Shown: positions 1,452 to 55,178, numbered from the stretch's first letter. The stretch: DNA of 64,000 nucleotides from a virus (IMGVR_UViG_3300028800_000003:55740-119739); one strand, 5' to 3'. The notes: generated by a model from the sequence alone, not told the origin. Numbers and translations: made by a program.

Positions 1452-2153
1452 ATGCTGCACGATCCTATCGTCGACGTGACTCACACGGTCTATTGCGGGC
1501 CGAAAGCGATTGCAATTCTGACCGGCGTTCCGGTGTCACGCATAGAGAAGATGTTGCGGCGCTGCCGTTCCGACAAGGGACGCGATAGCCGCGGCAGAAA
1601 GATACCGATCCGCGGCACATATAGTAGCCAAGTAGTCAAGGTCTTGCGCCGGCTCGGATGCAAGGTGGAGGAGATAAGTCACTGCGAGCCGACGTTGGGC
1701 CGCTTCATCACCGACACCAATACATTCAAGGCGCCATGTCTGGTGATGACGCGGAATCATTTCACGGTGACATTCGATGGCAAGTGTTACGATCACTACG
1801 CCGGCAAGCCGACGGTGCGCGTGGTGAGAGGATGGCGAGTAGAAGCCCCGGCGACGCCGAAATTCACCTGCGGAGCACCGGCACCAGCGAGGAAGCCTAA
1901 GCCCGCGCGTGATCTGCGGGCCGAGCGCCACGCCAAGGTGATGGCCAGGATCAAGAGACTGGAGACCAAGATTAAGCGCGCCACCACGGCGCTGAAAAAG
2001 GCCCAACGACAGGCGCGCTACTATCAGCGCGTCAGTCGCAGCCCCGACCAATCAGACCGTAGTCAACCTCGCTCGGATCGGAATACACCTCCCAGTGCCG
2101 CCATCCTTTCGGGCACCAGAATCCCCAGTCACGAGTCTTCGGTCCCAGCATGA
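1452..2153 (+). CDS. C39-like papain-fold protein with basic C-terminal extension
   Basis: The 233-residue product begins with a domain like the phage C39-type cysteine peptidases. Cys15 sits in TVYCGPKAIAILTGVP, His103 in TRNHFTVTFDG, and Asp114 follows in CYDHYAGKP, giving a plausible Cys-His-Asp triad. From about residue 140 the chain becomes Lys/Arg/Ala-rich with heptad-like helices, as if binding nucleic acid or forming a coiled coil. The last 120 bases overlap the end of the converging cupin gene, so the extreme C-terminus may be low-complexity read-through. The Shine-Dalgarno is unusually far (about 13 bases) from ATG 1452. Substrate unknown. Confidence 0.65.
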   Translation: MLHDPIVDVTHTVYCGPKAIAILTGVPVSRIEKMLRRCRSDKGRDSRGRKIPIRGTYSSQVVKVLRRLGCKVEEISHCEPTLGRFITDTNTFKAPCLVMTRNHFTVTFDGKCYDHYAGKPTVRVVRGWRVEAPATPKFTCGAPAPARKPKPARDLRAERHAKVMARIKRLETKIKRATTALKKAQRQARYYQRVSRSPDQSDRSQPRSDRNTPPSAAILSGTRIPSHESSVPA

Positions 2154-2550
2154 ACAGCGTGAGCGCTGTCGGCGTCACCAGCTCGATGCGATGCGAGAAT
2201 TTGGCCGATCGGAAGACGACATCACCGGCGCGGATCATCCGCACGCTGTGTTGCTCCTTGTCGCGCGGATCGAAGCCGTTCTGCGCATAGACCTCGCGGT
2301 AGACGCCGTCGAGAATCAGCGACATCGAGGCTCGCGGATGATCGTGCAAGGCGCGATCATCGTCGTCATTCTTGAACAGATGGATATAGGCGTTGGGCAA
2401 TAGCTTCGCCCGCGGCATCGTGATCCAACGCAGCATGTAGGGAGCTTCGCGTGGCCCGATGATGTTGTCAGGCTCACGCGATTCGATGACACGCATGGCG
2501 CGCTTGCGGATTGGATCGAACACCGCCTTCGGCAGATGAACGATCGGCAT
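2032..2550 (-). CDS. Cupin-fold protein
   Basis: A 172-residue single-domain cupin. The first motif reads ALHDHPRASMSLIL, with metal-ligand candidates His69 and His71, and the second has KFSHRIEL with His120. A conserved-looking tail GPKTRDWGFWCPKGW follows (residues 136-150). Cupins of this type occur in phages of alphaproteobacteria, often with unknown substrate; a dioxygenase or sugar/nucleotide-linked role is possible. Its start abuts the end of the endonuclease VII gene, implying co-transcription. Confidence 0.7.
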   Translation of the reverse strand: MPIVHLPKAVFDPIRKRAMRVIESREPDNIIGPREAPYMLRWITMPRAKLLPNAYIHLFKNDDDDRALHDHPRASMSLILDGVYREVYAQNGFDPRDKEQHSVRMIRAGDVVFRSAKFSHRIELVTPTALTLFMLGPKTRDWGFWCPKGWRHWEVYSDPSEVDYGLIGRGCD

Positions 2551-3056
2551 CAGGCGGCCTCCAGATAGTCGGCCGCAACACGTAGGATAGACGGATCGTC
2601 CTTGGCGTGACCGAGAATGGCATTACAGTTATGGCAAAGCAAACCGCGCACAGCCTTTGTCTTGTGGCAGTGATCAACGAAAAGACTGATGTGCTTTGAA
2701 TTACCGATAGGCGATGGACAGATGGCGCAGTGGCCGCCCTGCTTTTTCAAAAGCGCCTGATAGTCTTCGATGGTGAGGCCGTATCTCGCCAAATTACCCG
2801 ACCGGACAAGCGCCGGATTGGCGGCATACCGCTTGCGCATGTATGAGGCATGCTGAGCCAGTTGTTCTGGCGTTCGCTTCGCCTTCTTCACCGCAGGATT
2901 GCGCTCGACGTATGAACGTCGACACTCGCGCGAACATTCGACGCACTGGCGACTTTGAACGAAGCGAGCTGCAAGATGGCCTTGTAGGCATGGCCGCCCC
3001 GTGCAGTATTGCTTCAAGCCGCGTGACAATGCGTCCTTGCGGGACACAACATTCAT
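2550..3056 (-). CDS. Recombination endonuclease VII family protein
   Basis: The 168-residue product ends in an endonuclease VII (His-Me finger) domain. Zinc-ligand pairs are Cys110/Cys113 and Cys141/Cys144, and the catalytic core DHCHKTKAVRGLLCHNCNA holds residues 128 onward. The N-terminal part has a second Cys set (18, 23, 38, 41) that looks like a zinc ribbon. T4 gp49 and relatives resolve branched DNA before packaging. The ATG at 3056 nearly abuts the stop of the phosphoesterase gene. Confidence 0.85.
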   Translation of the reverse strand: MNVVSRKDALSRGLKQYCTGRPCLQGHLAARFVQSRQCVECSRECRRSYVERNPAVKKAKRTPEQLAQHASYMRKRYAANPALVRSGNLARYGLTIEDYQALLKKQGGHCAICPSPIGNSKHISLFVDHCHKTKAVRGLLCHNCNAILGHAKDDPSILRVAADYLEAA

Positions 3057-3057
3057 C

Positions 3058-4389
3058 CTACGCTGCCTCTTTGAACTCGGTGGCTTTGCGGGCCGCCGAC
3101 GGGATGTTGATGCGGAGACGGCCAATCTCCCCTTCCTCGCGGTGAATTGTGATCGATGAAAGCGATTTTCCAGATGTGTAGCCAGACGCCTCGTGATGCG
3201 CGTCATTGGCCGCGAGCGTCTGGAACGACTCGACCCGCACGTCACCGATCTCCTTTACGGACTCGTGGTGAATGTGCCCGAAATAGAAATAGTGATAGGC
3301 AGTGGAGCCCCAATCTTCGCGAGCACGCACCGCCATCGCCATCGCCATATCCTGCGGTTTGCAGCGGTAGCCATGCGTGGCGCCGATCAGTGTGTTGCCG
3401 AACCGATGGAAAAAGAATTCGGACGGCGAGCCCCACACCTTGACGCGCGGATTGTTGGCGTAGGCTTCGATCAGCGCGACATCGAGGGCGATGCTGGAAT
3501 GCGGGTCGTGGTTGCCGGGAATGTTCACGACCAGCACGTCATGATGCTTCTGGAGCGCCAGATCGACGATGTTCTTCATCAACTGGACGCCGGCCACCAA
3601 AATCTTTCGATAGCGGCTATCGACATCGAGCTTATTCTTGTGGCCTGGAGTGAGGTTGGTGCTGTCGTCTGTGTGCTGCCAGTCGCCGAGGTTGAGAACG
3701 ATGGCCTGACGGCTATGTGGAGCCTGGGAGACCATACGGCTGGCGCACGCCATGAGGCGCTGTTTGCCGATCTCCAGGTCGTAGGGTTCGCCAGTTTCCT
3801 TGCCCCAAGCGAGCAAGCCATTGTGCTGGTCGGCAATCGGGTACACCGAGAGCAGGTCAACATCAGTCAGGTGTGGCGGATGGATTAATGGAACCGGGGC
3901 GATTTCGTCCTTAAAGACCTCCTTGATGGCCTCTACCAGGAAACGATTCTCATCGTCCTTGGTCCGAATCCAGGCCTGTTTGAGAATGCCCTCCGGCGTG
4001 ATGTGGTAGGTGCCCTTGCCGAGCACCTTGCCCTTGGGCATCTCGAAGACAACGCCCTCGCCTTCGTCCGGCGAATTGATCTGGGATACCGTTTGCGCCG
4101 TGACGTTGCCGCTGCCGTCGGTCGTGGTCGAGGTCTTGTTGATGACGAAGCCGGGCAGCACCGGTTTGAAGCCAAGCAGTCCGCGTTCGGCCGCGGCGTA
4201 CAGTCGGCGCCGGAAGCTGGTCTTGGCCATGTTGTTGAGGGAGCGGGCAGCCGCGGCCTTGTTCTGGCCGTTTGCCTCGTAAGCGGCGGCGACGGCTTTA
4301 AGGTCGTCGTCGGAAAAGGATTCACCTTGCAATGGCTTAACTCCGTGGGGGCAGATAGGGGTCGCGGGTATTTTCTGTTTGACCCGCAC
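3058..4389 (-). CDS. Calcineurin-like metallophosphoesterase with N-terminal helix-turn-helix
   Basis: 443 residues if GTG 4389 is used. An alternative TTG at 4332 has a better spaced GGAG and would remove 19 residues. Residues 28-60 look like a DNA-binding helix-turn-helix of the terminase-small-subunit/transposase kind. The C-terminal domain has the two-metal phosphoesterase motifs ADQH (186-189), GDW (235-237), GNHD (292-295) and GHIHHE (371-376). Phage enzymes of this layout are common and are usually annotated as DNA-repair-like exonuclease or phosphatase. Its substrate cannot be told from sequence. Confidence 0.85.
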   Translation of the reverse strand: MRVKQKIPATPICPHGVKPLQGESFSDDDLKAVAAAYEANGQNKAAAARSLNNMAKTSFRRRLYAAAERGLLGFKPVLPGFVINKTSTTTDGSGNVTAQTVSQINSPDEGEGVVFEMPKGKVLGKGTYHITPEGILKQAWIRTKDDENRFLVEAIKEVFKDEIAPVPLIHPPHLTDVDLLSVYPIADQHNGLLAWGKETGEPYDLEIGKQRLMACASRMVSQAPHSRQAIVLNLGDWQHTDDSTNLTPGHKNKLDVDSRYRKILVAGVQLMKNIVDLALQKHHDVLVVNIPGNHDPHSSIALDVALIEAYANNPRVKVWGSPSEFFFHRFGNTLIGATHGYRCKPQDMAMAMAVRAREDWGSTAYHYFYFGHIHHESVKEIGDVRVESFQTLAANDAHHEASGYTSGKSLSSITIHREEGEIGRLRINIPSAARKATEFKEAA

Positions 4390-6997: not shown

Positions 6998-11893
<4,896 letters not shown>

Positions 11894-20060: not shown

Positions 20061-20783
20061 TTATCCCAAATCAGGTTCGGCGCAGAGCGTCTTGGCTACG
20101 CCGCCGTCTGCGAGCGCCACAGGCACGGCCGCGGCGCCCTTCTGCGTGACGCAGTGCGTCTTTTTCGGCTGCGAGATGATGTAGACGATATTGTTGTCAG
20201 ATTGCAGGATCACGTCGCCATTCGGCGCCTCAATCGTCATGCTGCCGTCTGGCGCCATCTTTATAATCTGCTTGCCATTCGGCTGCTGCTGCTGTTGTTG
20301 CTGTTGCTGTTGACCGGTGCCGCCGTTTGATTCAGTCGTCGTGTTCCCTGACTGCGACGTGTTCTGCCCGGTTTTGGTGTAGCCAGGGCCTCCGATCAGG
20401 AGCGTGCCGTCTTGCTGCGCATGAATGGTCGCGCCGTTCTGATGAATGATGGCATGCTCGCCCGCCTGCAATTCAGGCGGCTTGTTTTGATGCGACCAAT
20501 GGCGCGTCATAACGCGCGCTGACAGATGATTGCTTTCCTGGTTATGCACCTCGACCGGATCACCGATGTTCGGCGCCGAAGCGATGCCGTAACCATTGCC
20601 GACGGCAAGACCTGTCAAGGGAATCCACGCCGACTCGGTGCCTTCGGGCTGGTATTGAATCTTAACCGAGTGCGTTTTGGAGTCGTAGCTCGACACCAGG
20701 CCGACACGCGGCGGATTGTGATACTTACGCATGGTGCGCGCGACCTCGCGGCGCATCACGGAGACGAAGGAATCAAGGTACAT
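20061..20783 (-). CDS. Baseplate assembly/spike protein V-like
   Basis: 240 residues from ATG 20783. The N-terminal OB-fold pattern is RVGLVSSYDSKTHSVKIQYQ followed by WIPLTGLAVGNGYGIA and IGDPVEVH, typical of gpV/gp45-type spike proteins. A run of ten consecutive Gln (encoded near 20283-20312) forms a flexible linker. The C-terminal strands (MAPDGSMTIEAPNGDVILQS) match the repeat pattern of a triple-stranded beta-helix spike. It acts at the tail tip in puncturing the host envelope. The CAG/CAA tract may vary in length between isolates. Confidence 0.75.
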   Translation of the reverse strand: MYLDSFVSVMRREVARTMRKYHNPPRVGLVSSYDSKTHSVKIQYQPEGTESAWIPLTGLAVGNGYGIASAPNIGDPVEVHNQESNHLSARVMTRHWSHQNKPPELQAGEHAIIHQNGATIHAQQDGTLLIGGPGYTKTGQNTSQSGNTTTESNGGTGQQQQQQQQQQPNGKQIIKMAPDGSMTIEAPNGDVILQSDNNIVYIISQPKKTHCVTQKGAAAVPVALADGGVAKTLCAEPDLG

Positions 20784-20787
20784 TTGA

Positions 20788-21984
20788 TCACACAACGCTG
20801 CCGGTCAGCATCGTGAAGCCTTGCACCGGCGTCTGCTGGAAAGGATTGGTCGGCTGTTTCGGTTGATTCGGATCAGGATTCGGAAGGTCTGGATTTGGCG
20901 AATAGCCAAACGACCATTGCGGAGAATTGTAGCCCGTAATCTCCATGTCGTAGCCGTCGTCATCGTTCATGCGATGCACGACCTCGTACATATAGTAGGT
21001 CATGTCGAACGAGGTCTGCGTTCCAGACAGTGCGATCATCATCGTCGGCTGCACGACCACGTCGCCGCGCATTTGCACCTCGATGGTGTATTCGTGCATC
21101 TGCGCGTAGCGCTGGCCTGCGTTAGCCAGTTGCTGAACTTGTTGCTGGGTCTTATTCGGGATGCGCGCGGCGCCCTGATACTTGCCGGCGCCAGCCATGG
21201 CAGTGTAGGCTTGGTTGTCCGATTGCTTCCAACTCATGACGCCGTACTGGACGCCTTGCCCCAGATCAAAGTTGTGGATGCAGTTCAGTTTTTCCATGTT
21301 GCCGGCATCATAGTCATCGGTGCCGATGCCTGCCTCTGTTTGAGACGAGACCTCTCTGCCGATTTGCGGCGGCCGATAATGAATGGCGTATGTTGAACTG
21401 ACAGCCGTTCCTGGCGCCACGTAATAGAGCGTATTGCCGACAACGAAGGCGACGTAACCATCTTGATGCGCAAGCGTCTGAATGACATCCCACGGCGTTT
21501 CCAGATCGGAATTGAAAACGGTGTTGCCTTGGGCGTCGACATCGCCAGCCATAGAGCCCGGACCTGCGACGACCTGGAGGCCGGCTTGCGACGCCAATTG
21601 AGTCACGATCTGGCTGGTGGTCTGATTTGTCCACGACGCGTCGCTGCGAGTATCGAGCAGCGGGCGGCCTTTGTCGCTCATTTGAGCGGTGACAGTTCGC
21701 GTGCCGAAATCCACCGTGGCGTAATCGATGTAGCCGGTGAGGATCGTCGCCGTGGTCTTCTGCGCGTCGCCGTTGGTGGCGATAAGGGATGCCGGAATGA
21801 GTCCGCCCTGCGACCAGAATTGAGCGCCCGGATTGGTTGGATCATCGACCGCCATCGTAATCTCTGCGGTCGATTGCTGGCCGGCGCTCTGAATCAGGCG
21901 CGCCTCGAAGGCCATGATATTGATGGTGTCGTTACCAATGAGCAGCCACGCGCGCGGCTGGCGCGCGATCCCATTCTCTGCCAT
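20788..21984 (-). CDS. Tail hub protein (gpD/gp27-like)
   Basis: 398 residues from ATG 21984, preceded by GAGGAGGGC. It has the hub-type arrangement: an N-terminal beta domain (GYIDYATVDFGTRTVTAQ), a central DVIQTLAHQDGYVAFVVGN segment and a C-terminal beta domain with MTYYMYEVVHRM. A Pro/Gln-rich tail closes it. It lies between LysM and spike genes as gpD lies beside gpX and gpV in P2-like phages. It connects tube to spike. Confidence 0.75.
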   Translation of the reverse strand: MAENGIARQPRAWLLIGNDTINIMAFEARLIQSAGQQSTAEITMAVDDPTNPGAQFWSQGGLIPASLIATNGDAQKTTATILTGYIDYATVDFGTRTVTAQMSDKGRPLLDTRSDASWTNQTTSQIVTQLASQAGLQVVAGPGSMAGDVDAQGNTVFNSDLETPWDVIQTLAHQDGYVAFVVGNTLYYVAPGTAVSSTYAIHYRPPQIGREVSSQTEAGIGTDDYDAGNMEKLNCIHNFDLGQGVQYGVMSWKQSDNQAYTAMAGAGKYQGAARIPNKTQQQVQQLANAGQRYAQMHEYTIEVQMRGDVVVQPTMMIALSGTQTSFDMTYYMYEVVHRMNDDDGYDMEITGYNSPQWSFGYSPNPDLPNPDPNQPKQPTNPFQQTPVQGFTMLTGSVV

Positions 21985-31536: not shown

Positions 31537-32463
31537 TTAGGAATTGGTTGTCAGCGTCGGCGCATTGGACGGCACCGGAAGTTTTCCGGTGGGCGACACG
31601 GCGGCCTGGACTTGCTGTTGAGCAGCGCCAATCTCGTGAGCCGTCATGGCTACGGTCTCGGCAAATTCGATCTGGAAAAACAGGTCGCGCCGATAAAGAC
31701 CTTGGGATTGCGCCGTATCGAGAGTGACTGTCCGCTCATAGCGGATCATGGCCCAGACGCCATCAATCATTGAGATGCGGTTGAGATTGCGTAGTGGCGG
31801 GCTGATGATCTTGGAAACGGCAGTGCGCCAGGTGTCGGCGTCTTGATCGGCCACGTTGCACGGAGGTGACCAGATCGTGATCTGGAATTCCTTGCATTGC
31901 TGGCCGACGATTTGAATGGCGGTTCCTGCGGCCGTAACACGCGCTTCAACCGGAAGCGTGCTGTTGACGGTAATGACGGCGCCGCTTGATGTCGTGCCTG
32001 CGAATGATCCCGCAATGAGCGCAGCGAGTCCGCTGGCGATGGAATTGACTGTGTCGGCCGGCTGCACGGCATAGGAAAAGGCCTGCACATCCGCAGACCC
32101 GCCGACCAGCGCAATGACGTTCTGCGGTGTCGCTGTCGTGCCGGCGATAGTGATCTGATTTTTCTGCGAACCGCCAACCGTCGCCGTCAACGTATGGACA
32201 GGCGCCACGGATGGAATCCAGGAAAGCGGCTTGCGCGTGGTGTTGCGTTCAACGCCAATGCGCGTGCAGACTGAAACGATGACCAATCCTGGCATCCCGG
32301 ATGCGGACTGGCTGTTAGCGAGAGTGAAATCTGCCGTCGTTGGCCAGCCGCGAGCGACCTGGCACGGCACGCCGGCCGCGCACGACTGACCGGTGCCGTT
32401 CGGATACAGATAGCCGATGATCATCGATTTGAGCGTATTCTCGACATCAGTTTCGTCGCACAT
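31537..32463 (-). CDS. Tail terminator/completion-like protein
   Basis: 308 residues between head-tail joining and sheath genes. The ends (MIIGYLYPNGTGQSC near the start and MIRYERTVTLDTAQSQGLYR near the end) fit a neck or tail-completion alpha/beta fold. A LysM- or Ig-like insert lies in the middle (ITIAGTTATPQNVIALVGGS to AVITVNSTLPVEARVTAAGT). The C-terminal tail is Pro/Ala-rich. Assigned mainly by gene order. Confidence 0.6.
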   Translation of the reverse strand: MCDETDVENTLKSMIIGYLYPNGTGQSCAAGVPCQVARGWPTTADFTLANSQSASGMPGLVIVSVCTRIGVERNTTRKPLSWIPSVAPVHTLTATVGGSQKNQITIAGTTATPQNVIALVGGSADVQAFSYAVQPADTVNSIASGLAALIAGSFAGTTSSGAVITVNSTLPVEARVTAAGTAIQIVGQQCKEFQITIWSPPCNVADQDADTWRTAVSKIISPPLRNLNRISMIDGVWAMIRYERTVTLDTAQSQGLYRRDLFFQIEFAETVAMTAHEIGAAQQQVQAAVSPTGKLPVPSNAPTLTTNS

Positions 32464-40970: not shown

Positions 40971-41179
40971 TCGATTTGACAATGAAGGCTTACAAGGAAG
41001 GCGATCGTATCGTGCTGGCGGACGACCTTGGCCCGACCGCACTATCTGCATTGCTCGGCGGCAAGCATGGAGTCGTGTATCGCGTCGTCAAAGCGCGTCG
41101 CGTATTCACCGTGAAACTAGAGGACGGCAGATTCTATGACGCGCCACCGTGCGCTCTGCGCCCGGAGACGCAGCAATGA
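40967..41179 (+). CDS. Hypothetical protein, 70 aa
   Basis: Starts at ATG 40967 with AAGGAAGGGAGC upstream; ends ATGA into the ParB gene. The middle (GGKHGVVYRVVKARRVFTVK) is a short beta barrel pattern. No family recognised. Confidence 0.65.
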   Translation: MIDLTMKAYKEGDRIVLADDLGPTALSALLGGKHGVVYRVVKARRVFTVKLEDGRFYDAPPCALRPETQQ

Positions 41180-42057
41180 GTATCCGCATCCCCATCGTCA
41201 AAATCGATCGCGATTCTGCGCAGCCGCGCAAAGCGTTCGATAACACGCACATCCAGTCACTGGCGGCATCGATCCGCAAGCGCGGCCTATTGCAGCCCAT
41301 TACCGTGCGACCGCGTGACGACGGCCGCTACCAAATCGTGGCCGGCGAATGTCGTTGGCGCGCGCATAAACTCTTGGTCGAGCGCGGCTACAAGCAATTC
41401 GCGGAAATCTCATGCAACGTCGTCGCGATGACTGATCGCGAGAAGAAAATCGCAGCGATCATCGAAAACGTGCAGCGCGCCGACATGAATCCGATCGAGG
41501 AGGCCGAGGGCTATCAATCGCTGATGGACGACGGCATGACGCTCGATCAGGTCGTCGAGGAGACCGGCAAGGGCCGCGATCACGTCCGGCACCGGCTCGA
41601 ACTACTGTCACTTGACGAAGGCATTCGCGGCCTCGTTAAGTCCGGGCAATTGCCGCCGACGATGGGCGTCGTCATTACCTGGGCGCCGAAGCATCATCAC
41701 GCCAATCTGGTGCGCCAGATTGCGGCCGGCAAACTGAAGACGACGGAACACGTCCGCCACGCCGCGATGGCGTTACGTGACGCGGAAGCGCAAGCCGACG
41801 CGTTTGCGTCTGCACCGCCCGCATCAAAAGAGGATCGGCGCAAGCTCGCGTCACTGGAAAACAGGATCGAGCAAGTCGCCAAGCTGGTGCGGTTCGGCTT
41901 CAAAGACGGCGAGTGCGTTGCCGCGAAACGAGTCGATCCGCAACGTATCAAGAAAGCCGCAGACCAGCTCGCGCTGATCCGCAAGCACATACAGCAAATG
42001 GAACATGCACTGCGCTGCGCCGCAGCCCAGGGCGAAATCTTGAAGGAGGCCGCATGA
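41176..42057 (+). CDS. ParB/RepB/Spo0J-family protein
   Basis: 293 residues from ATG 41176. ParB box I is DSAQPRKAFDNTHIQSLAAS, followed by GLLQPITVRPRDDGRYQIVA. Box II is the GECRWRAHKLL motif in place of GERR. ENVQRADMNPIEEAEGYQSL and a helix-turn-helix (MTLDQVVEETGKGRDHVRHR) follow, then a long C-terminal helix. ParB proteins bind parS-like DNA and act as CTP-dependent clamps; phage relatives may partition plasmid prophages or regulate transcription. A ParA-like ATPase is encoded separately at 47.8-48.5 kb. Confidence 0.85.
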   Translation: MSIRIPIVKIDRDSAQPRKAFDNTHIQSLAASIRKRGLLQPITVRPRDDGRYQIVAGECRWRAHKLLVERGYKQFAEISCNVVAMTDREKKIAAIIENVQRADMNPIEEAEGYQSLMDDGMTLDQVVEETGKGRDHVRHRLELLSLDEGIRGLVKSGQLPPTMGVVITWAPKHHHANLVRQIAAGKLKTTEHVRHAAMALRDAEAQADAFASAPPASKEDRRKLASLENRIEQVAKLVRFGFKDGECVAAKRVDPQRIKKAADQLALIRKHIQQMEHALRCAAAQGEILKEAA

Positions 42058-42242
42058 AATATCGCGTCGGACTGACACAACGCGTCATCGAGGAAGCAAC
42101 TGTCGAGGTCGAGGCTAATTCCGCGCAAGAGGCCGAGGATAAAGCCTTGGCGAAAGCGCTATCAGGTGACATCGAGTGGCGCTTTCTCGAAGCCAACGAG
42201 ACCCCGGAGATTTCCGCAGAGCCTGAGGAGATAAAGCCGTGA
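42054..42242 (+). CDS. Hypothetical protein, 62 aa
   Basis: ATGA overlap with ParB. Beta-alpha pattern (MKYRVGLTQRVIEEATVEVE, ALAKALSGDIEWRFLEANET) and an acidic end. Coupled to the ASCH gene by a GTGA overlap. Confidence 0.6.
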   Translation: MKYRVGLTQRVIEEATVEVEANSAQEAEDKALAKALSGDIEWRFLEANETPEISAEPEEIKP

Positions 42243-42700
42243 AGGCGATCAGTCTATGGCAGCCATGGGCATCCCTGTGGCTGTCACCTGCAAAGATTCA
42301 CGAGACCAGAAGCTGGCCGACGAAACATCGCGGCTGGACGCTTGTGCATGCCGCCAAGCGCTCGCCTGATGACTTTCAGGGACAAGACGAACTGGACGAG
42401 GTCTGCAAGCGCGTGCTTGGGGCCGACGCGCCGCTTGGCCCGCGCGGCGCACTGATCGGCATGGTTAATATTGTCGACTGTCAGCGCACCGAGGCCATTC
42501 TCAACGGCTATCAGGAGCCCGACGATTTTGTCTGTGGCGACTATCGTCCTGGCCGTTACGGCTGGCGTCGCAGCGATTACGTGATCTTCAAAAAGCCGAT
42601 CCCGTATCGCGGAATGCAGATGCTTTTCAGCGTGCCGGAATCCGTTCTGCCGCCCGAGGCGAAGGCGCTGATACCGCAGCGCGAACTATTCACGCCGTAA
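42239..42700 (+). CDS. ASCH-domain (PUA-like) protein
   Basis: 153 residues from GTG 42239. The start MKAISLWQPWASLWLSPAKI with HETRSWPTKHRGW is the usual ASCH opening; GPRGALIGMVNIVDC forms the middle strand. ASCH domains bind RNA or modified nucleotides. Here it ends a rightward operon, converging with the ABC-GNAT gene by an 11-base overlap. In phages these are found near DNA-modification and translation genes. Confidence 0.75.
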   Translation: MKAISLWQPWASLWLSPAKIHETRSWPTKHRGWTLVHAAKRSPDDFQGQDELDEVCKRVLGADAPLGPRGALIGMVNIVDCQRTEAILNGYQEPDDFVCGDYRPGRYGWRRSDYVIFKKPIPYRGMQMLFSVPESVLPPEAKALIPQRELFTP

Positions 42701-43799
42701 TGAGTCGTCTGGCCTTGTCGGCATCTTCCGCCGCGGGTCCGATGTAACGAAACACCGCGCACGGCCGCCCGCCGATGCGCGCGCCAAGCGTCGAGGTCGC
42801 ACCGTTGACGTGCGAGAATTTGCCAGGCTTGGCCTCAAGCTGCCAGCATTTCGACTTGTCGAATGACCGGATCAGCGCCGGATGCGCCGGGTATGTGTGC
42901 AGCCGCCGCTTGATGGCGCGATACTGCGCGCCGAGCGTGTCAACCAGGACCATCGCCAAGCCCATGCCCTGATAGTCGGGCAGCGTGACAAGACGCGATA
43001 CGCCATAGATGTCGCTCACGGTCGGATGCGGGCGATACAGCACGCCGGCAAAAGCGGCTGGCTGGCCATCCGCGAACAGCACGTAACACCGGGCCGCGCG
43101 ATGCAGATCGGCGGTCAGATAGTGGAACGGAGCGAACAGCTTCCAAGCCGAATGATCGACGCGCGCGATCTCGACGGCGAGTTCTGGTCGTCGTTGAACC
43201 GCCCTCCACTGGAAAGTCATCGTGGCCGGTTCCAACATCCAATCGGGCTGGAGCCAGTCGATCACGTCATAATGACAGGTGACCGCGACGAATTTCCGCG
43301 CATTGCGCCGAACGTATTTTTGAACCGCGTGCGAACCAATATGGGCGACTTGACGATCAATCACCGAGGTGAATTCGTCGATGACGATCGGGTCGTCGTC
43401 TTCCATCAGATGCCGCGCCAGGTCGACGCGGAATTTCTCTCCCGTGGAGAGCACCGCGTAGGGCTTCATCCATGACGGGATCGTATTGAAACCGACAGCG
43501 GAGCATATCGCCGAGATGTCGGCGATCGAGTGCTTGCCATCAAAATCGTCAATGACCGAACCGGCCTTCCAGTCGAAGGTCTTCGGCTCGCCGAACATCT
43601 GGCGCATCACCGAGGACTTGCCGGCGCCGGACGGCCCAACGATCAGGCCGACATTCCAGTCCTTGGTATCGATCGGAACATCGCCCGACCATTCGCGCTC
43701 CAGCTTCTCGGTCAACGGCACGTCGAACATGCCGGAGAGTTGCTTGACGCGAGGCGTCAACTTGATTTCCGATTTGACTACGAAATCAACGCGCGACAT
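42690..43799 (-). CDS. ABC-ATPase/GNAT-acetyltransferase fusion, Mom-like candidate
   Basis: 369 residues. The N-terminal ABC-type ATPase has a Walker A GPSGAGKSS (55-63), a signature LSTGE (117-121), a Walker B IVIDE (138-142) and a switch His (174-176, TCH), all within a compact span. The C-terminal half is GNAT-like: WKLFAPFHYLTADLHRA has an HYL (226-228) like the HHY of Mom-type acyltransferases, and the acetyl-CoA-binding loop reads RLVTLPDYQGMGLA (269-282). No membrane segment is present, so this is not a transporter. Overlaps the ParB-like gene by 22 bases. Candidate DNA-base modification enzyme. Confidence 0.8.
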   Translation of the reverse strand: MSRVDFVVKSEIKLTPRVKQLSGMFDVPLTEKLEREWSGDVPIDTKDWNVGLIVGPSGAGKSSVMRQMFGEPKTFDWKAGSVIDDFDGKHSIADISAICSAVGFNTIPSWMKPYAVLSTGEKFRVDLARHLMEDDDPIVIDEFTSVIDRQVAHIGSHAVQKYVRRNARKFVAVTCHYDVIDWLQPDWMLEPATMTFQWRAVQRRPELAVEIARVDHSAWKLFAPFHYLTADLHRAARCYVLFADGQPAAFAGVLYRPHPTVSDIYGVSRLVTLPDYQGMGLAMVLVDTLGAQYRAIKRRLHTYPAHPALIRSFDKSKCWQLEAKPGKFSHVNGATSTLGARIGGRPCAVFRYIGPAAEDADKARRLITA

Positions 43800-44353
43800 T
43801 CGATGCCCTCCTCCTCGAATTTGGTCAGGAGTCGGGTCTGTTCTTCCTCAGTCTCGCACTCGATGACGATCGAGAACTTGTTTTCGCCGAGTTTGGAGGA
43901 GCCGTCTTCCTCCTCGCGGCCCATCAGCTTGTCGAGTTGCGCGGTCGAGAAGCCGAGGAGATCGAGGTCGAAATTCATCTCCAGCGCGGCACATTCCATG
44001 CCGAGCAATTCCTTGTCCCAGCCGCCGTTCTCGGTCAGCCGATTGTCGGCGATGATGTAGGCGCGCTTCTGCGCATCACTCCAGCCGCGAGCAACGAGGC
44101 ATGGCGCCTTGGTGTAGCCATTCTTCTTGGCGGCGCGGATACGGGCATGACCGGCGAGGATGAAATCATCCTCATCGATCAGGACCGGCATCGTCCAACC
44201 CCACTGCCGCATCGCTTTGCAGATCAGCTTGATCTGCTCGGCGCTATGCGTGCGCGAGTTCTGCGGATGCGGCTTGAGAGCCGCGATGTCGCGCAGCTCG
44301 ATTTTGGTTGCCGGCCAATTCACAGGGTTGGCCGAGCCGTTGACGCCTTCCAT
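43778..44353 (-). CDS. ParB-like (Srx-fold) nuclease-domain protein
   Basis: 191 residues from ATG 44353. It has the phage ParB-like core: LRDIAALKPHPQNSRTHSAE, QWGWTMPVLIDEDDFILAGH, ARIRAAKKNGYTKAPCLV and QKRAYIIADNRLTENGGWD. It continues to a C-terminal part (KLMGREEEDGSSKLGENKFS) and lacks a helix-turn-helix tail. This subtype is often found fused or adjacent to DNA methyltransferases and modification genes. Overlaps the ABC-GNAT gene, indicating joint expression. Confidence 0.8.
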   Translation of the reverse strand: MEGVNGSANPVNWPATKIELRDIAALKPHPQNSRTHSAEQIKLICKAMRQWGWTMPVLIDEDDFILAGHARIRAAKKNGYTKAPCLVARGWSDAQKRAYIIADNRLTENGGWDKELLGMECAALEMNFDLDLLGFSTAQLDKLMGREEEDGSSKLGENKFSIVIECETEEEQTRLLTKFEEEGIECRALIS

Positions 44354-44373
44354 AATTGCCTCTCAGAGAATAA

Positions 44374-44640
44374 TCAGGTGGCAGGCACGATCAGCCGGCC
44401 GTTCTTGCCAAGCTCCATCAGGGCTTTGAACGGTGCGTTGATCATCGAGACGATTTCAGCAAGCGGTAGCGTGCATGTTGCTACGTCGCCGCAGGACTCG
44501 TCTGACTTTTTCGGCCCGCGTACCGTGATCTGGAATTTGCCGTCGACGACATTCATCGACACGAATTCTGGATAGGTTGGGTCCTTGGGATTGTTCGCCG
44601 TGTAAGCGAAAATGTTGACAGGGTTGACAGGCATGGTCAT
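44374..44640 (-). CDS. Hypothetical protein, 88 aa, in the modification cluster
   Basis: Starts at ATG 44640, overlapping the phosphorylase stop (TGATG). It includes YPEFVSMNVVDGKFQITVRG and two Cys (ESCGDVATCTLPLAEI), with a C-terminal helix. No family recognised; its position between the phosphorylase and ParB-like genes suggests shared function. Confidence 0.6.
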   Translation of the reverse strand: MTMPVNPVNIFAYTANNPKDPTYPEFVSMNVVDGKFQITVRGPKKSDESCGDVATCTLPLAEIVSMINAPFKALMELGKNGRLIVPAT

Positions 44641-45299
44641 CAATCGTTCCATTGAAAATTGCTGCCGACCTGCCGACAGACGCGATCGAGCGCGTCCATT
44701 GATTTTTTGTATTCGAGAGCGGTCTTGACCAACGCTGGAACTTGCAGCGGATCGGTCACCACTGACCAGATCACGGCCTCCAGATTGTCGGTGCCGTTGG
44801 CGTTCAATGCGTCAACAACGGCCGGCGGCAGGTTGTCATGCTCGCCATCGGATACCGAGCGCAATGCGGCGAGCGCCAACTTGCGCTCTTTCGCGAATTG
44901 CGCCACGGCGAAGGTTTCGTCGTCGATGACTTGGCAACGCGTCTTGGCGAACAGCGCGTCACGCTCGATCTTGTTATTGGCGGTATTGAAATCGCCCGAT
45001 GACCACCAGCGCACGCCCAGAGCGCCGGTGCATTCGTAAAGCCGCTGCGTCCAGCCGCGGTCTGTCTCGTATTCGCCGTCTGGCGTGTCGACAATGCCGG
45101 CAAGCACCACATCGCCAACGGCGATCGAGGGCGCCAGGCCGCCGCACAGGCCAAGTGAAATGATGGCTCTGGCATTGGACGGCACCGACTTGCGCAGCGC
45201 GTCCACGGTCAGAATACCGGTCAATACCAGAACATCGGCCGCGGCGTATTTCTTGGCGACGCGAAATTCGCTCGCCATGCCGGTCTTGATAACAAGCAT
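44640..45299 (-). CDS. Nucleoside phosphorylase-like protein (HpnG-related)
   Basis: 219 residues from ATG 45299. The fold is that of the PNP/UDP family: LVIKTGMASEFRVAKKYAAA, ARAIISLGLCGGLAPSIAVG (47-57 is the phosphate loop region), a TRCQVIDDETFAVA segment in place of DMES, and RSVSDGEHDNLPPAVVDAL. The order and spacing match the hopanoid-associated phosphorylase HpnG better than purine nucleoside phosphorylase. HpnG releases adenine from adenosylhopane. In this cluster it could cut a purine nucleoside or supply a base for modification; the substrate is unknown. Confidence 0.7.
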   Translation of the reverse strand: MLVIKTGMASEFRVAKKYAAADVLVLTGILTVDALRKSVPSNARAIISLGLCGGLAPSIAVGDVVLAGIVDTPDGEYETDRGWTQRLYECTGALGVRWWSSGDFNTANNKIERDALFAKTRCQVIDDETFAVAQFAKERKLALAALRSVSDGEHDNLPPAVVDALNANGTDNLEAVIWSVVTDPLQVPALVKTALEYKKSMDALDRVCRQVGSNFQWND

Positions 45300-47844: not shown

Positions 47845-48540
47845 TCAGGCCAGCACGCCGACGCGATCAAATTCCTTCCAGCACTTTTCGGCCCAGGTCT
47901 TGAGCAGCCCCTTGATGGTGCGCGATTGAGCCGGGTCGTTCATGAAATCGAGGAACGACTCGCCAGCCTTTTCCGGGCCGGACTTCTCCAAGGTCTCGCG
48001 GATGCGATCTTCCATGAACGGAATATCGATCATCATCGGCGCCATGCTCGCCAGGATATCCTTGGTGTCAGACGTGTCCCAGTCGAAATATGAAGCGTCC
48101 GGCGAAATGTGGTTCTTGACCAGCAGATGTCGCACGTTGCCGATGCGCGATGCCGCGGCGCTGATCTCTCCGATCGAGCGCACGGTGGGGCCGAGCACAT
48201 GCAACAACGTCATTTTCATAACGCCGCGCTTCACGTCTTCCAGGAGCCGCGCGTCATCGAGCGTCTGAATTGCGCTCATGAGTCGGCCGGCCGGAAGATC
48301 GACAACCGTAACCGCGTCGTCATTGACGCCATCGAAGACCTTCATCTGATCGTCGATGGAGTCGATGTTGACAATCGAGGCATAGCCGGCAAAGCGAGAC
48401 AGATCGCCGCCGGGATAATCGGCATCGAACGCGCGCAGCTTCATGTTGCGGACCTTCATCAGGTCGAGCAGAAGCCGTGCCGTCATCGTCTTGCCGACGC
48501 CGCCCTTGTCGGCACCGACGAAGATCATCGTGGCGGTCAT
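47845..48540 (-). CDS. ParA-like P-loop ATPase
   Basis: 231 residues. A deviant Walker A (DKGGVGKTMTA, 11-21) opens the protein, followed by LRAFDADYPGGDLSRFAG (switch I region) and VTVVDLPAGRLMS (Walker B/switch II). The C-terminal half is helical. This fits MinD/ParA/SIMIBI ATPases used for DNA segregation or positioning. It is placed beside the portal with no ParB neighbour, so a packaging, partition or modification role are all possible. Confidence 0.75.
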   Translation of the reverse strand: MTATMIFVGADKGGVGKTMTARLLLDLMKVRNMKLRAFDADYPGGDLSRFAGYASIVNIDSIDDQMKVFDGVNDDAVTVVDLPAGRLMSAIQTLDDARLLEDVKRGVMKMTLLHVLGPTVRSIGEISAAASRIGNVRHLLVKNHISPDASYFDWDTSDTKDILASMAPMMIDIPFMEDRIRETLEKSGPEKAGESFLDFMNDPAQSRTIKGLLKTWAEKCWKEFDRVGVLA

Positions 48541-48639
48541 CTTGTTGCCTCACAAGAAAAGGAAAGAGCGCGGGCCGGGGCGTAACTCCCGGCGTTGACT
48601 CCCCGTGGGCGAACCACCGTCGGCCGCGCTTTGAAAGAA

Positions 48640-49125
48640 TTACAGCGCGCCGAGCGCCGAATTCAGGATGGCGTGCGTCACCGAATCCTCGGAGTTGGTC
48701 ACGACGTTGTTGAGCAGATAGTTCAGGAGCGCCCGGCTTTCGTTCATCTTGGTCTGAACGAGCTGAACCAGGCCGCGCACGTCGGTGGAATTCGGCGTAG
48801 CGAAGCCGGCAGCGATGTCGGCAGGCTCGAACCCGAATTGGAGAACGTCGCCAGAGGTGATGGCGTTGGCAGCATCGGCCGCCAGCGTCACGTCGACGCC
48901 GCTGATTGAAGCGACCGCGCCGACATACGCGCCAGCCGTCACGTCATACACCGGCATGCCGGCAACGATCCAAGACGGGGCAGCAATCCCGAGCACAACC
49001 GTTTCCGAATTGGTGGCAGTGGCGCCGCCGGCAGCGATCTGGCCAAGGGGCAGACCAGTGACCTGACTCGTGGCCAGCATGCCGTCGGCATTGTAGAGTT
49101 CATTGAGGTAAGCGCTAACGCCCAT
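48640..49125 (-). CDS. Hypothetical protein, 161 aa
   Basis: Starts MGVSAYLNELYNADGMLATS. The Ala/Gly-rich beta-like core (GQIAAGGATATNSETVVLGI, then GAVASISGVDVTLAADAANA) and C-terminal helical tail (LVQLVQTKMNESRALLNYLL) are typical of small phage structural proteins. No family confirmed. A long GC hairpin follows its stop. Confidence 0.6.
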   Translation of the reverse strand: MGVSAYLNELYNADGMLATSQVTGLPLGQIAAGGATATNSETVVLGIAAPSWIVAGMPVYDVTAGAYVGAVASISGVDVTLAADAANAITSGDVLQFGFEPADIAAGFATPNSTDVRGLVQLVQTKMNESRALLNYLLNNVVTNSEDSVTHAILNSALGAL

Positions 49126-49203
49126 GGAAAAATTCCTTCTCGAAAGAAATTAACGTTGGTCGCAGCGGCTCTTGCCGGCGACAAAAATGATTTGAAGACG
49201 AAT

Positions 49204-49497
49204 TCAGCAGCGAGGACCGCTGCCATATCGCACGCACATGCAAAGGCCGGAGTGCGCGCAAGCCGGACAGCCGGTGCCAAGCGGGATAGCATCGCCCGTG
49301 CGTGGCCATCCAAACGGATCGCCGTAAGGTCGATCCGTCCATGGATCGACTGTGGGCGACGGCATATGCGGCACCACGACAGGGCCGGTCGCCATCGGCG
49401 TAACGTGATCGCACGTCGCGACACCTGGCGCGACACCGCGATTACAGACTGGGCATTGCCAGCCTTTGTTGTCGTTCACGATAGGATCAGCCGCCAT
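49204..49497 (-). CDS. Cys-rich zinc-ribbon protein, 97 aa
   Basis: Two zinc-ribbon-like Cys pairs (GWQCPVCNRGVAPGVATCDH, then GTGCPACAHSGLCMC) flank a Pro/Gly-rich middle. Overlaps the upstream small gene by 11 bases. May bind nucleic acid; function unknown. Confidence 0.6.
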   Translation of the reverse strand: MAADPIVNDNKGWQCPVCNRGVAPGVATCDHVTPMATGPVVVPHMPSPTVDPWTDRPYGDPFGWPRTGDAIPLGTGCPACAHSGLCMCVRYGSGPRC

Positions 49498-49672
49498 GTT
49501 TGATCTCGCCTTCGTGGCGCTTGATCACGCCGTTGGCTTCGCGAATGGCGAGGCCTTCGTTACCGGTGCGTCGCAGGATGCCGTCGGCGATGTCCGCCCA
49601 CTGGCGTTCTTTTTTGGGATCACCGGCGACCTTGCTGTCGTGTCGCGCTGCATCTCCGGGTTGCCAGGGCAT
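49487..49672 (-). CDS. Small hypothetical protein, 61 aa
   Basis: Begins MPWQPGDAARHDSKVAGDPK. The RQWADIADGILRRTGNEGLA segment, with REANGVIKRHEGE, resembles small phage proteins with an RQW-ADVAN helix and Gly-Asp pattern. Coupled to the Cys-rich gene. Confidence 0.6.
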   Translation of the reverse strand: MPWQPGDAARHDSKVAGDPKKERQWADIADGILRRTGNEGLAIREANGVIKRHEGEIKHGG

Positions 49673-49932
49673 GGTCTTTCACCTTCGCAACAATGGGCAA
49701 ATCCGCAACCGCCGCATTCAGGGCAAAGCAAGTTGCAACCGAAACACGACGGACAGATCACTGAGTATCCAAAAAATTGTCGACAACGCGCGTCACACCG
49801 TAAGGTTCCAGTTATTCCACAACCCTCCGCGTGTAACCTTGTCACGTTGCTTTTGATTATGGGTTGCACTACCAAGGAGAAGCACTTGCAACTCAAGCAA
49901 GCATTTATAGGCCAAGGAAGGAGGACGCCCTT
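49673..49932. other. Regulatory gap before the repressor gene
   Basis: No confident gene. An inverted repeat GTTGCA-N18-TGCAAC (49863-49868 and 49887-49892) lies just upstream of the XRE repressor and is a candidate autoregulatory operator. A Cys-rich minus-strand frame crosses this area but its start and end are not supported. Confidence 0.4.
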
Positions 49933-50313
49933 ATGGCGAGTAAACGCACAAACGAATTTGACAATATCGTCGCCAAGCGTATCCGCGCACGAAGGCTGTC
50001 GTTGGGCATGAGCCAGGAGACTCTAGCCAATCATCTCGGGATCACGTTTCAGCAGGTACAAAAATACGAACGCGCCGCCAACCGCATCTCGGTCGGACGG
50101 CTGATCGAAATCGGCAAGGCGCTGGAAATCGCGCCCGAATCACTTCTTAAAGGCCTGACACACGCCGGCCACCTCGCCCATAGCGAGAACCGCGGTCTGG
50201 CCTTCCTGCAAACACGCGATGGCATCGGTCTGACCAATGCCATGGAACGAGCGAAGCCAAGGCAGCGAAAAGCTGTACTGCGCTTCCTTCAAGACATGAT
50301 GATGGCTGCTTAA
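49933..50313 (+). CDS. XRE-family HTH repressor
   Basis: 126 residues from ATG 49933 behind a very strong AAGGAAGGAGG. The HTH domain (RIRARRLSLGMSQETLANHL, GITFQQVQKYERAANRISVG) occupies residues 17-60. The C-terminal part (ENRGLAFLQTRDGIGLTNAM, then a short helix) resembles alphaproteobacterial HTH regulators. It is the only rightward gene here and converges with the Ntn-hydrolase gene by four bases. Likely a phage regulator; whether it recognises the ATACCCGC sites is unknown. Confidence 0.85.
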   Translation: MASKRTNEFDNIVAKRIRARRLSLGMSQETLANHLGITFQQVQKYERAANRISVGRLIEIGKALEIAPESLLKGLTHAGHLAHSENRGLAFLQTRDGIGLTNAMERAKPRQRKAVLRFLQDMMMAA

Positions 50314-53792: not shown

Positions 53793-53820
53793 GGTTTGAT
53801 CACCAGAAGCCGCGGCATGA

Positions 53821-54012
53821 TCAGAACCAGCCGAGCAGCGCGCCGAGCGGGAAGGCAAAGATGCCGAGGATGCGCACGGCAAACATCGTCGTCACCGGCG
53901 AATTCGCCACGGCGAGATGCACCACGTCGATCAGATTCATGATCCAGCCGGCGACACCGGCGACAACCACGGCCATGTAGACGATAGCGAAAGAACCAAA
54001 CAGCTTACCCAC
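53821..54012 (-). CDS. Small membrane protein, 63 aa
   Basis: Start at GTG 54012, five bases after GGAGG; an ATG at 54024 is in frame but overlaps that site. Two hydrophobic helices (FAIVYMAVVVAGVAGWIMNL and FAVRILGIFAFPLGALLGWF) make it an inner-membrane protein of unknown role, possibly holin-like. Confidence 0.55.
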   Translation of the reverse strand: MGKLFGSFAIVYMAVVVAGVAGWIMNLIDVVHLAVANSPVTTMFAVRILGIFAFPLGALLGWF

Positions 54013-54427
54013 GAATGCCTCCATTCGGTTGGTGGGATTGGACGAACGCGGCGACTCAAGGAGCGCCGCGCGGTAGAGAATTCTGGACATCGTCACGCGC
54101 AGCGCTGCATTGGCGCGGCCGCTTCGCTGCGACGAGTCAATAAGAGGCGGCGCCGCGTGATGAAATTCAGCGGTCGCCGCCGGAAATGGGCAGGTCTTAA
54201 AATTAGTTGCGCAGGCGCTGATACCGCCTCGCTCAAAAAGAAACTGCGTGGCGGCCAAAGCCTCTGTCAGGGCTGGCGCGCCACGATGTTTCGCCGATGC
54301 AACTCGGCGGGGTATTAATCGGCCGGAGATCAGCCCGGCCGGCCTGGGAGCGACCCAGGACTTATAGCCGCCAGAACACGGTGTCGACGTGCGGTCGCTT
54401 GTTGCGGCCGCGCCGTGCTGGCGGAAT
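54013..54427. other. Gap before tRNA-Pro
   Basis: 415 bases without a convincing gene. Several GC-rich inverted repeats (such as ATCGGCCGGAGATCAGCCCG) occur. The stretch probably holds the mature tRNA 3' flank and a transcript end. I see nothing else. Confidence 0.4.
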
Positions 54428-54504
54428 TGGTCTGCGTGGCAGGACTCGAACCTGCGACAACTCCGCTCCGAACGGAGGACTCTACCAAGCTGAGCTACAC
54501 GCAG
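54428..54504 (-). tRNA. tRNA-Pro(CGG)
   Basis: Minus-strand cloverleaf. CTGCGTG pairs with CACGCAG (C1-G72 as in bacterial tRNA-Pro). D arm GCTC/GAGT, anticodon stem CTCCG/CGGAG with loop TTCGGAG (anticodon CGG), T arm GCAGG/CCTGC with TTCGAGT. A73 and an encoded CCA (54428-54430) follow. Confidence 0.9.
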
Positions 54505-54539
54505 ATATTTGCGTGCGCCGCGAGGCGAGCGAAAAGGAT

Positions 54540-54641
54540 TTACGCCCAGCCTTCGCGGCTGGCGCTTGGGTAGCCATTCACAGGCTTCATCGGAATGTAA
54601 AGGGTCGTGCCGCCATCAATGATGGTCTCGGTGGAAGCCAT
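54540..54641 (-). CDS. Tiny hypothetical protein, 33 aa
   Basis: MASTETIIDGGTTLYIPMKP to GYPSASREGWA, ATG 54641 with AAGGGATCG upstream. Sits 12 bases after the hydroxylase stop and 36 before tRNA-Pro. Evidence is the ribosome-binding site and spacing only. Confidence 0.4.
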   Translation of the reverse strand: MASTETIIDGGTTLYIPMKPVNGYPSASREGWA

Positions 54642-54653
54642 GACACGATCCCT

Positions 54654-55178
54654 TCAAAATTCGGTGCCGAAGACGCGATCCCACAAGCTCGTAACGACAC
54701 CGTAGTTGGTGTCATCCACGGCATGGTGGATGGCGTGACGCCGTTTCAGACGCCACAGCGGATGACCGCGGCGAATGTCGGCGTAATGGAACAAGGTATG
54801 CAACGCGGCATAGACCACGTAGCCGATCGAGAAGCCGATCATGGCGGCGCTCGACTGCAAGCCGAAGGCCAGCCAGGAGCCGGCATACATCAACGTGGTG
54901 AGCAGCGGATGCAGCGCGATGTAGTCGCGCGGCTCGTCATGGTGCATTGCGTGAAAGCGACGCAGCAACAGCGGCGCCTCGTGTAGCACCCAGCGATGCA
55001 CCACGTATTCGTAGAGGCTCCAGACGAACAGGCCGATGCCTGCCTCGCCGAACCATTTCAATGACACGCCGTGGATGACAGAAAGGATCAGCAAGCCCAG
55101 CGTGGCCGGTGCCGTGATCAGAAAGTCGGCGTAATATTCCCACTTGGTCAGCTTGACCAGCCGCTGAAATTTGATCAT
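54654..55178 (-). CDS. Fatty-acid hydroxylase/sterol desaturase superfamily membrane enzyme
   Basis: 174 residues. The eight-His di-iron signature is complete: HRWVLH (61-66), HAMHH (76-80), HTLFH (127-131) and HAIHH (148-152). Two to three membrane segments (LITAPATLGLLILSVIHGV, GFSIGYVVYAALHTLF) embed it in the membrane. Relatives hydroxylate or desaturate fatty acyl chains, sterols or carotenoids using O2 and a redox donor. A phage gene of this type could alter host lipids or lipid A and so exclude other phages. No redox partner is seen nearby. Confidence 0.85.
   Translation of the reverse strand: MIKFQRLVKLTKWEYYADFLITAPATLGLLILSVIHGVSLKWFGEAGIGLFVWSLYEYVVHRWVLHEAPLLLRRFHAMHHDEPRDYIALHPLLTTLMYAGSWLAFGLQSSAAMIGFSIGYVVYAALHTLFHYADIRRGHPLWRLKRRHAIHHAVDDTNYGVVTSLWDRVFGTEF

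Follow-up and report, generated by a model that had tools for sequence, protein, structure and literature searches.

We analysed a window of 64 kb, the right-hand part of the 119,739-base virus record IMGVR_UViG_3300028800_000003, along which no end repeats were found. Four leftward genes in this window encode, in order of transcription, a protein of the nucleoside phosphorylase fold, an 88-aa protein, a ParB/Srx-domain protein and an ABC ATPase fused to a GNAT acyltransferase (ABC-GNAT). They follow the portal and a series of small genes and precede a convergent, rightward ParB/ASCH operon and head genes, which gene order and sequence suggest to code for prohead protease/scaffold and capsid. 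The large terminase gene (TerL) is found close to the record's left end (record 1629-3320), and searches of the phage collection with the portal and capsid proteins retrieved no relatives. The initial annotation was right in describing the four genes as overlapping or abutting, tightly packed from 45299 to 42690, and in placing them after the portal and beside the ParB/ASCH operon. The domain identities that it proposed (PNP, ParB, and ABC plus GNAT in a single protein) are likewise upheld by Pfam and PHROG matches.

Table 1. Features of the phosphorylase/ABC-GNAT region (window positions) and, in the last line, stretches with PanD at other ABC-GNAT loci (locus positions).
Feature	Position	Strand	Evidence
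Canonical ParB with HTH, upstream of ASCH in the rightward operon	41176..42057	+	ParB_N 4e-22, HTH_ParB 4e-13
ASCH-domain protein, convergent to ABC-GNAT	42239..42700	+	ASC-1 ASCH structures E 1e-8; phrog_3193 5e-27
ABC ATPase fused to GNAT acyltransferase, phrog_11143, 369 aa	42690..43799	-	phrog_11143 E 8e-99
ParB/ABC-GNAT reading-frame overlap, 22 nt	43778..43799	-	same length and phase in 26 non-redundant loci
ParB/Srx-domain protein, 191 aa, type fused to phage DNA methyltransferases	43778..44353	-	phrog_620, phrog_498, PADLOC MTase_II
88-aa protein, no assigned function	44374..44640	-	weak homologues only
Nucleoside phosphorylase/nucleosidase-fold protein, HpnG/PRK07077-like, 219 aa	44640..45299	-	PNP_UDP_1 E 1e-12
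PanD and, where present, the genes after it, behind ABC-GNAT	L054 7104-8119; L062 7068-8091; L064 932-1947; L066 7098-7457; L087 6107-7218		

The phosphorylase gene starts with the ATG at 45299, and the 88-aa reading frame begins on the final base of its stop codon (44640). After a 20-nt gap comes the ParB/Srx gene, whose start at 44353 is preceded by GAGAGG. ABC-GNAT starts at 43799, 22 nt within the ParB/Srx gene and behind a strong ribosome-binding site, GGAGGAGG; this overlap probably serves translational coupling. At the other end, the 3' termini of ABC-GNAT (42690) and of the rightward ASCH gene (42700) overlap by 11 nt. The window further encodes a ParA (47845-48540), probably the partner of the canonical ParB at 41176-42057, and a phage integrase family gene is found at record 53795-54862; with these three genes the virus might have a temperate or plasmid-like lifestyle. 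Elsewhere in the record, an N-6 DNA methylase-like protein (record 20365-21186, L085:1365-2186; PF02384, E 2e-7) is a possible second modification gene of this virus. NADAR, SLOG-family, NUDIX, deoxynucleotide monophosphate kinase, RtcB and RNA ligase families are represented within record 1-55739. Example positions of this counter-defence/repair-like set are record 141-677, 10713-11276, 31583-32143 and 48627-50069, of which only those of NUDIX and RtcB are pinned to a gene, the others being deduced.

Pfam detects both ABC_tran (E 2e-7) and Acetyltransf_1 (E 1e-6) within the one ABC-GNAT chain. Its Walker A (GPSGAGKS), signature (LSTGE), Walker B (DEFTS) and H-loop (CHY) motifs, as well as the GNAT acyl-CoA motif RxVxLPDxQGxG, are invariant or nearly so among sets of 50 and 72 homologues, in which H226-Y227 and R269 are likewise conserved. 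The AlphaFold model consists of two domains (pLDDT 91) for which Foldseek retrieves ABC ATPases and GNATs, and a Leptospira phage homologue aligns with it over the full length. With both domains in one chain, intact motifs and a ParB/Srx gene directly upstream, the protein belongs to the phage ABC-GNAT family. GNATs coupled to an ABC ATPase have been predicted to carry out an uncharacterised acyl modification of a DNA base, with QAX98348.1 as a named case (PMC7824862, 2021, citing Iyer et al. 2013). This protein is the gene under our hit H13, from Aeromonas phage AsFcp_2, and shares 39% identity with the studied ABC-GNAT over residues 19-320. Both have the same ABC plus GNAT architecture, but the pair studied here follows the portal instead of lying ahead of the terminase, and the phosphorylase and 88-aa genes come before it. 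As side observations, the relatives in Rhizobium phage RHEph10 and Escherichia phage PhiR41_1 (L098 and L099) are shorter and consist of the ABC part alone; they lie close to genes for ParB-like proteins or a 'DNA modification methylase' and may represent the module in split or reduced form.

The ParB/Srx protein scores below the Pfam cut-off with ParB_N (E 2e-4), and matches phrog_620 (E 2e-48), the DNA methyltransferase N-terminus phrog_498 (E 2e-45) and, over positions 4-157, the PADLOC MTase_II profile (E 2e-27). Its best matches among phages comprise ParB-methylase genes as well as the ParB encoded at a different ABC-GNAT locus, and identity to phage genes annotated as methylases is 41-51%; the protein is thus homologous to the ParB/Srx domain of phage DNA methyltransferases. 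A 2025 survey (PMC12704722) covered fusions of the ParB fold to acetyltransferases and methyltransferases, and the ParB-terminase loci of temperate phages have been described as hot spots for modification genes, where ParB was suggested to direct modification during packaging (PMC6536676). The studied locus resembles the latter in that a ParB-like gene is followed by the gene of a predicted DNA-modifying enzyme in the packaging/head region, but differs in what lies downstream, namely the rightward ParB/ASCH operon and head genes; with TerL located near the left end of the record, the modification gene is not found between ParB and the large terminase. Since a QAX98348.1-type homologue had already been named and ParB-terminase loci had been described, the ParB/ABC-GNAT pair is of an already predicted kind, known in other phages.

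Searches for ABC-GNAT returned 73 phage records (some matching the ABC half only), 130 viral stretches and 278 bacterial-genome stretches. We used the best 80 of the 130 viral and the best 80 of the 278 genome stretches plus 11 annotated phage loci; viral and phage loci were collapsed at 90% identity to 72, while genome loci were left uncollapsed. ABC-GNAT is preceded on its own strand by a ParB gene, at a distance of 250 nt or less, in 53 of the 65 non-redundant viral loci with enough upstream sequence and in 62/77 (uncollapsed) bacterial-genome loci, fractions that describe this sample and not all phages, because loci were ranked by similarity to the query, and in which related phages are only partly independent. 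The genome loci provide the cleaner test, since the ParB and ASCH profiles were made from viral-locus hits. The exact 22-nt overlap recurs in the same phase in 26 non-redundant viral loci, from Lactococcus P335 to Pseudoalteromonas SL25 phages, and many annotated phages display the order ParB, ABC-GNAT, terminase, portal, with the terminase just downstream. ParB and ABC-GNAT are therefore a genuine, widespread module. Several jumbo and T4-like phages (L090, L092, L093, L096) have no detected ParB next to ABC-GNAT. In five further loci (L010, L011, L029, L074 and L186, 604-2315, the last from Gordonia phage AnClar), genes or gaps of 0.5-2 kb separate the two; the intervening gene of AnClar is annotated as an HNH endonuclease, and the arrangement is consistent with homing-gene insertion.

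The initial annotation had looked to co-occurrence of all four families in other phages, which is borne out for ParB and ABC-GNAT and fails for the remaining two: across the viral and genome loci examined, the phosphorylase and 88-aa genes stand beside ABC-GNAT only in the studied virus and in two contigs with identical genes. The 88-aa protein has weak homologues only (E 4e-5 to 8e-5), in 152-154 kb Rhizobium phages whose corresponding neighbourhood contains no annotated ABC-GNAT, and is probably not part of the module. The phosphorylase is a member of the PNP/UDP phosphorylase superfamily (PNP_UDP_1, E 1e-12, 48.4 bits, cut-off 25.1), whereas its scores with HpnG (E 7e-31, 107 bits) and PRK07077 (E 1e-31, 110 bits) stay below the curated cut-offs of 187 and 215 bits, so that its earlier label 'HpnG-like' stands as a statement of similarity and not of family membership. 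Residues E11, E128 and D151 are conserved with HpnG homologues, and we take them to be the active-site Glu and Asp residues of the superfamily, with roles as in MTA/SAH nucleosidases. No match was found in 50,697 phage records, nor any relative in a scan of genome contigs that reaches close relatives only. Distant HpnG-like relatives occur on plasmids and in two genomes reached via ABC-GNAT loci, and in Roseomonas a distant relative resides within a hopanoid cluster. The hopanoid-associated phosphorylase HpnG itself shares fold, overall sequence and active-site residues with the studied protein, which differs from it in scoring below the family cut-off, being phage-borne and lying outside a hopanoid gene cluster.

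These findings bear on the proposal that all four genes form one pathway, with the phosphorylase releasing or exchanging a base or nucleoside for use in modification by ABC-GNAT. Packing tight enough for a single transcript and retention of the active-site Glu and Asp speak for such a pathway; however, the restriction of the phosphorylase and 88-aa genes to this virus and the two identical-gene contigs argues against it, as does the consideration that GNAT acylation of DNA would need no free base, and we consider it improbable. The supposition that the phosphorylase supplies the base is not supported by this distribution, and its variant, in which the enzyme has been recruited into the operon in this virus to supply or proof-read the modified base with ASCH as reader, has a similarly slim chance of being correct. 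Instead, the phosphorylase and 88-aa genes may be later, lineage-specific insertions into the ParB/ABC-GNAT transcription unit, and for the phosphorylase a separate role, salvaging or clearing nucleosides and not supplying a base, is most likely. More specifically, it could be a stand-alone salvage or counter-defence enzyme acting, for example, on methylthioadenosine, S-adenosylhomocysteine or nucleosides released when NAD or signals are broken down, a reading to which we give slightly less than an even chance. Its nearest relatives, HpnG and the MTA/SAH nucleosidases, favour this role, as do the NADAR, SLOG-family, NUDIX and deoxynucleotide monophosphate kinase genes of the same genome; identity to any relative found is, on the other hand, at most about 32%. 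A stand-alone phosphorylase is compatible with DNA modification by the ParB/ABC-GNAT pair.

For that pair, gene anatomy, intact ATPase and GNAT motifs, the conserved pairing and overlap, a methyltransferase-type ParB and a recurrent ASCH neighbour lead us to predict that ParB-guided ABC-GNAT acylates a base in DNA, with a probability of about 0.6. We infer DNA as the substrate mainly because the same ParB targeting domain, in the same place, serves both methylases and ABC-GNAT; the frequent terminase-proximal position together with the methylase-type ParB points the same way. Against DNA acylation, the studied pair is not itself placed before a terminase, ABC-GNAT occurs without a detected ParB neighbour in several jumbo and T4-like phages, the enzyme resembles the DNA-modifying Mom of phage Mu only weakly, and GNATs have proteins, tRNA and small molecules as their targets no less often than DNA. 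The enzyme might thus acylate a host protein or tRNA, in host takeover or anti-defence, with the neighbouring ParB as its regulator. The phages with ABC-GNAT and no detected ParB neighbour would fit this explanation, and so would the RtcB and RNA ligase genes of the studied virus, the listing by Foldseek of RimI and, weakly, of the tRNA cytidine acetyltransferase TmcA, and the description of phage GNATs that modify RNA polymerase or are predicted to act on ribosomal proteins (PMC7824862). Yet the frequent pairing with a methylase-type ParB and the terminase-proximal position indicate DNA, and a protein or tRNA target appears unlikely, at roughly one chance in five.

Two known enzymes offer partial parallels. 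Mom of phage Mu also uses the GNAT fold to modify DNA (adenine, in its case), but has no ABC domain. Mom membership was rejected, as no Mom family appears among the Pfam or PHROG matches and the structural similarity is weak (Foldseek rank 37, TM 0.42 to the target, E 6e-4). TmcA similarly combines an ATPase with a GNAT that acylates a nucleobase amine, but is an RNA helicase-GNAT instead of an ABC-GNAT, and superposes poorly overall.

Neighbouring genes hint at the acyl donor. An aspartate decarboxylase (PanD) gene directly follows ABC-GNAT in five lineages, and a CoA_transf_3-like gene comes next in 4/5 of them, one of these (L062) having no Pfam match of its own and being grouped by similarity, and two others scoring just below the Pfam cut-off. 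Next in line at L054 is a second ABC-GNAT. This neighbourhood suggests an acyl-CoA donor, perhaps beta-alanyl-CoA; the studied virus has no such genes beside its pair. Separately, a formyltransferase-domain gene of Pseudomonas phage Komp_PAO1_1 (L091 6110-6727) overlaps the end of ABC-GNAT and is possibly another acyl-transfer partner. No mention of PanD with ParB and terminase in phages was found in the open papers searched. The conserved overlap, the statistics on convergent ASCH genes and the PanD/CoA-transferase neighbours were not found in the literature searched, from which Iyer et al. 2013 fell outside, and we claim no priority for them.

A convergent ASCH gene lies within 1.5 kb past ABC-GNAT in 18/69 viral and 14/74 genome loci, and ASCH is never on the same strand as ABC-GNAT; the control on the upstream side yielded 1/43 and 2/65, respectively. 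The canonical ParB-ASCH pair convergent to ABC-GNAT is also present in L004 and L007. The ASCH protein of the studied virus is weak in Pfam (E 0.14) and matches the human ASC-1 ASCH structures and phrog_3193 (E 1e-8 and 5e-27). Among ASCH enzymes, E. coli YqfB is an N4-acylcytosine amidohydrolase active on N4-acyl-deoxycytidines, with a Lys21, Thr24, Glu74 triad (PMC6972931). A neighbouring eraser of this type would imply an N4-acylcytosine mark. However, the position of the catalytic Thr24 is occupied by Glu in the studied protein (KxxE) and in every neighbour ASCH in which the motif was found, in the forms KxxETR/KxxENR, and the closest structures by sequence are those of ASC-1, not YqfB. 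Assignment as a YqfB-type amidohydrolase was consequently rejected, and an eraser is very improbable. Resemblance to ASC-1 and lack of the YqfB catalytic threonine make a reader the likelier role, and the ASCH protein is likely to read the acyl mark. The modification machinery that the initial annotation had seen here is well supported for ParB and ABC-GNAT, with ASCH as recurrent convergent partner; as a single four-gene pathway it is not supported.

In the mechanism that we envisage for DNA acylation, the small ParB would bind or slide on phage DNA and bring ABC-GNAT there. The ABC ATPase would dimerise on ATP and present a base by clamping or distorting the duplex. The GNAT domain would then move the acyl group from acyl-CoA onto this base at its exocyclic amine, for which N6 of adenine and N4 of cytosine are natural candidates. 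The mark could hide phage DNA from host restriction at about the stage of packaging, and the convergent ASCH protein would probably bind the acylated base. In the literature searched ABC-GNAT exists as a prediction only, yet the enzyme is encoded by many bacterial genomes and by phages whose hosts differ widely. The frequent methylase-type ParB partner, the recurrent convergent ASCH gene and, in some phages, the acyl-precursor-like genes that hint at the attached group give experimenters handles on it.
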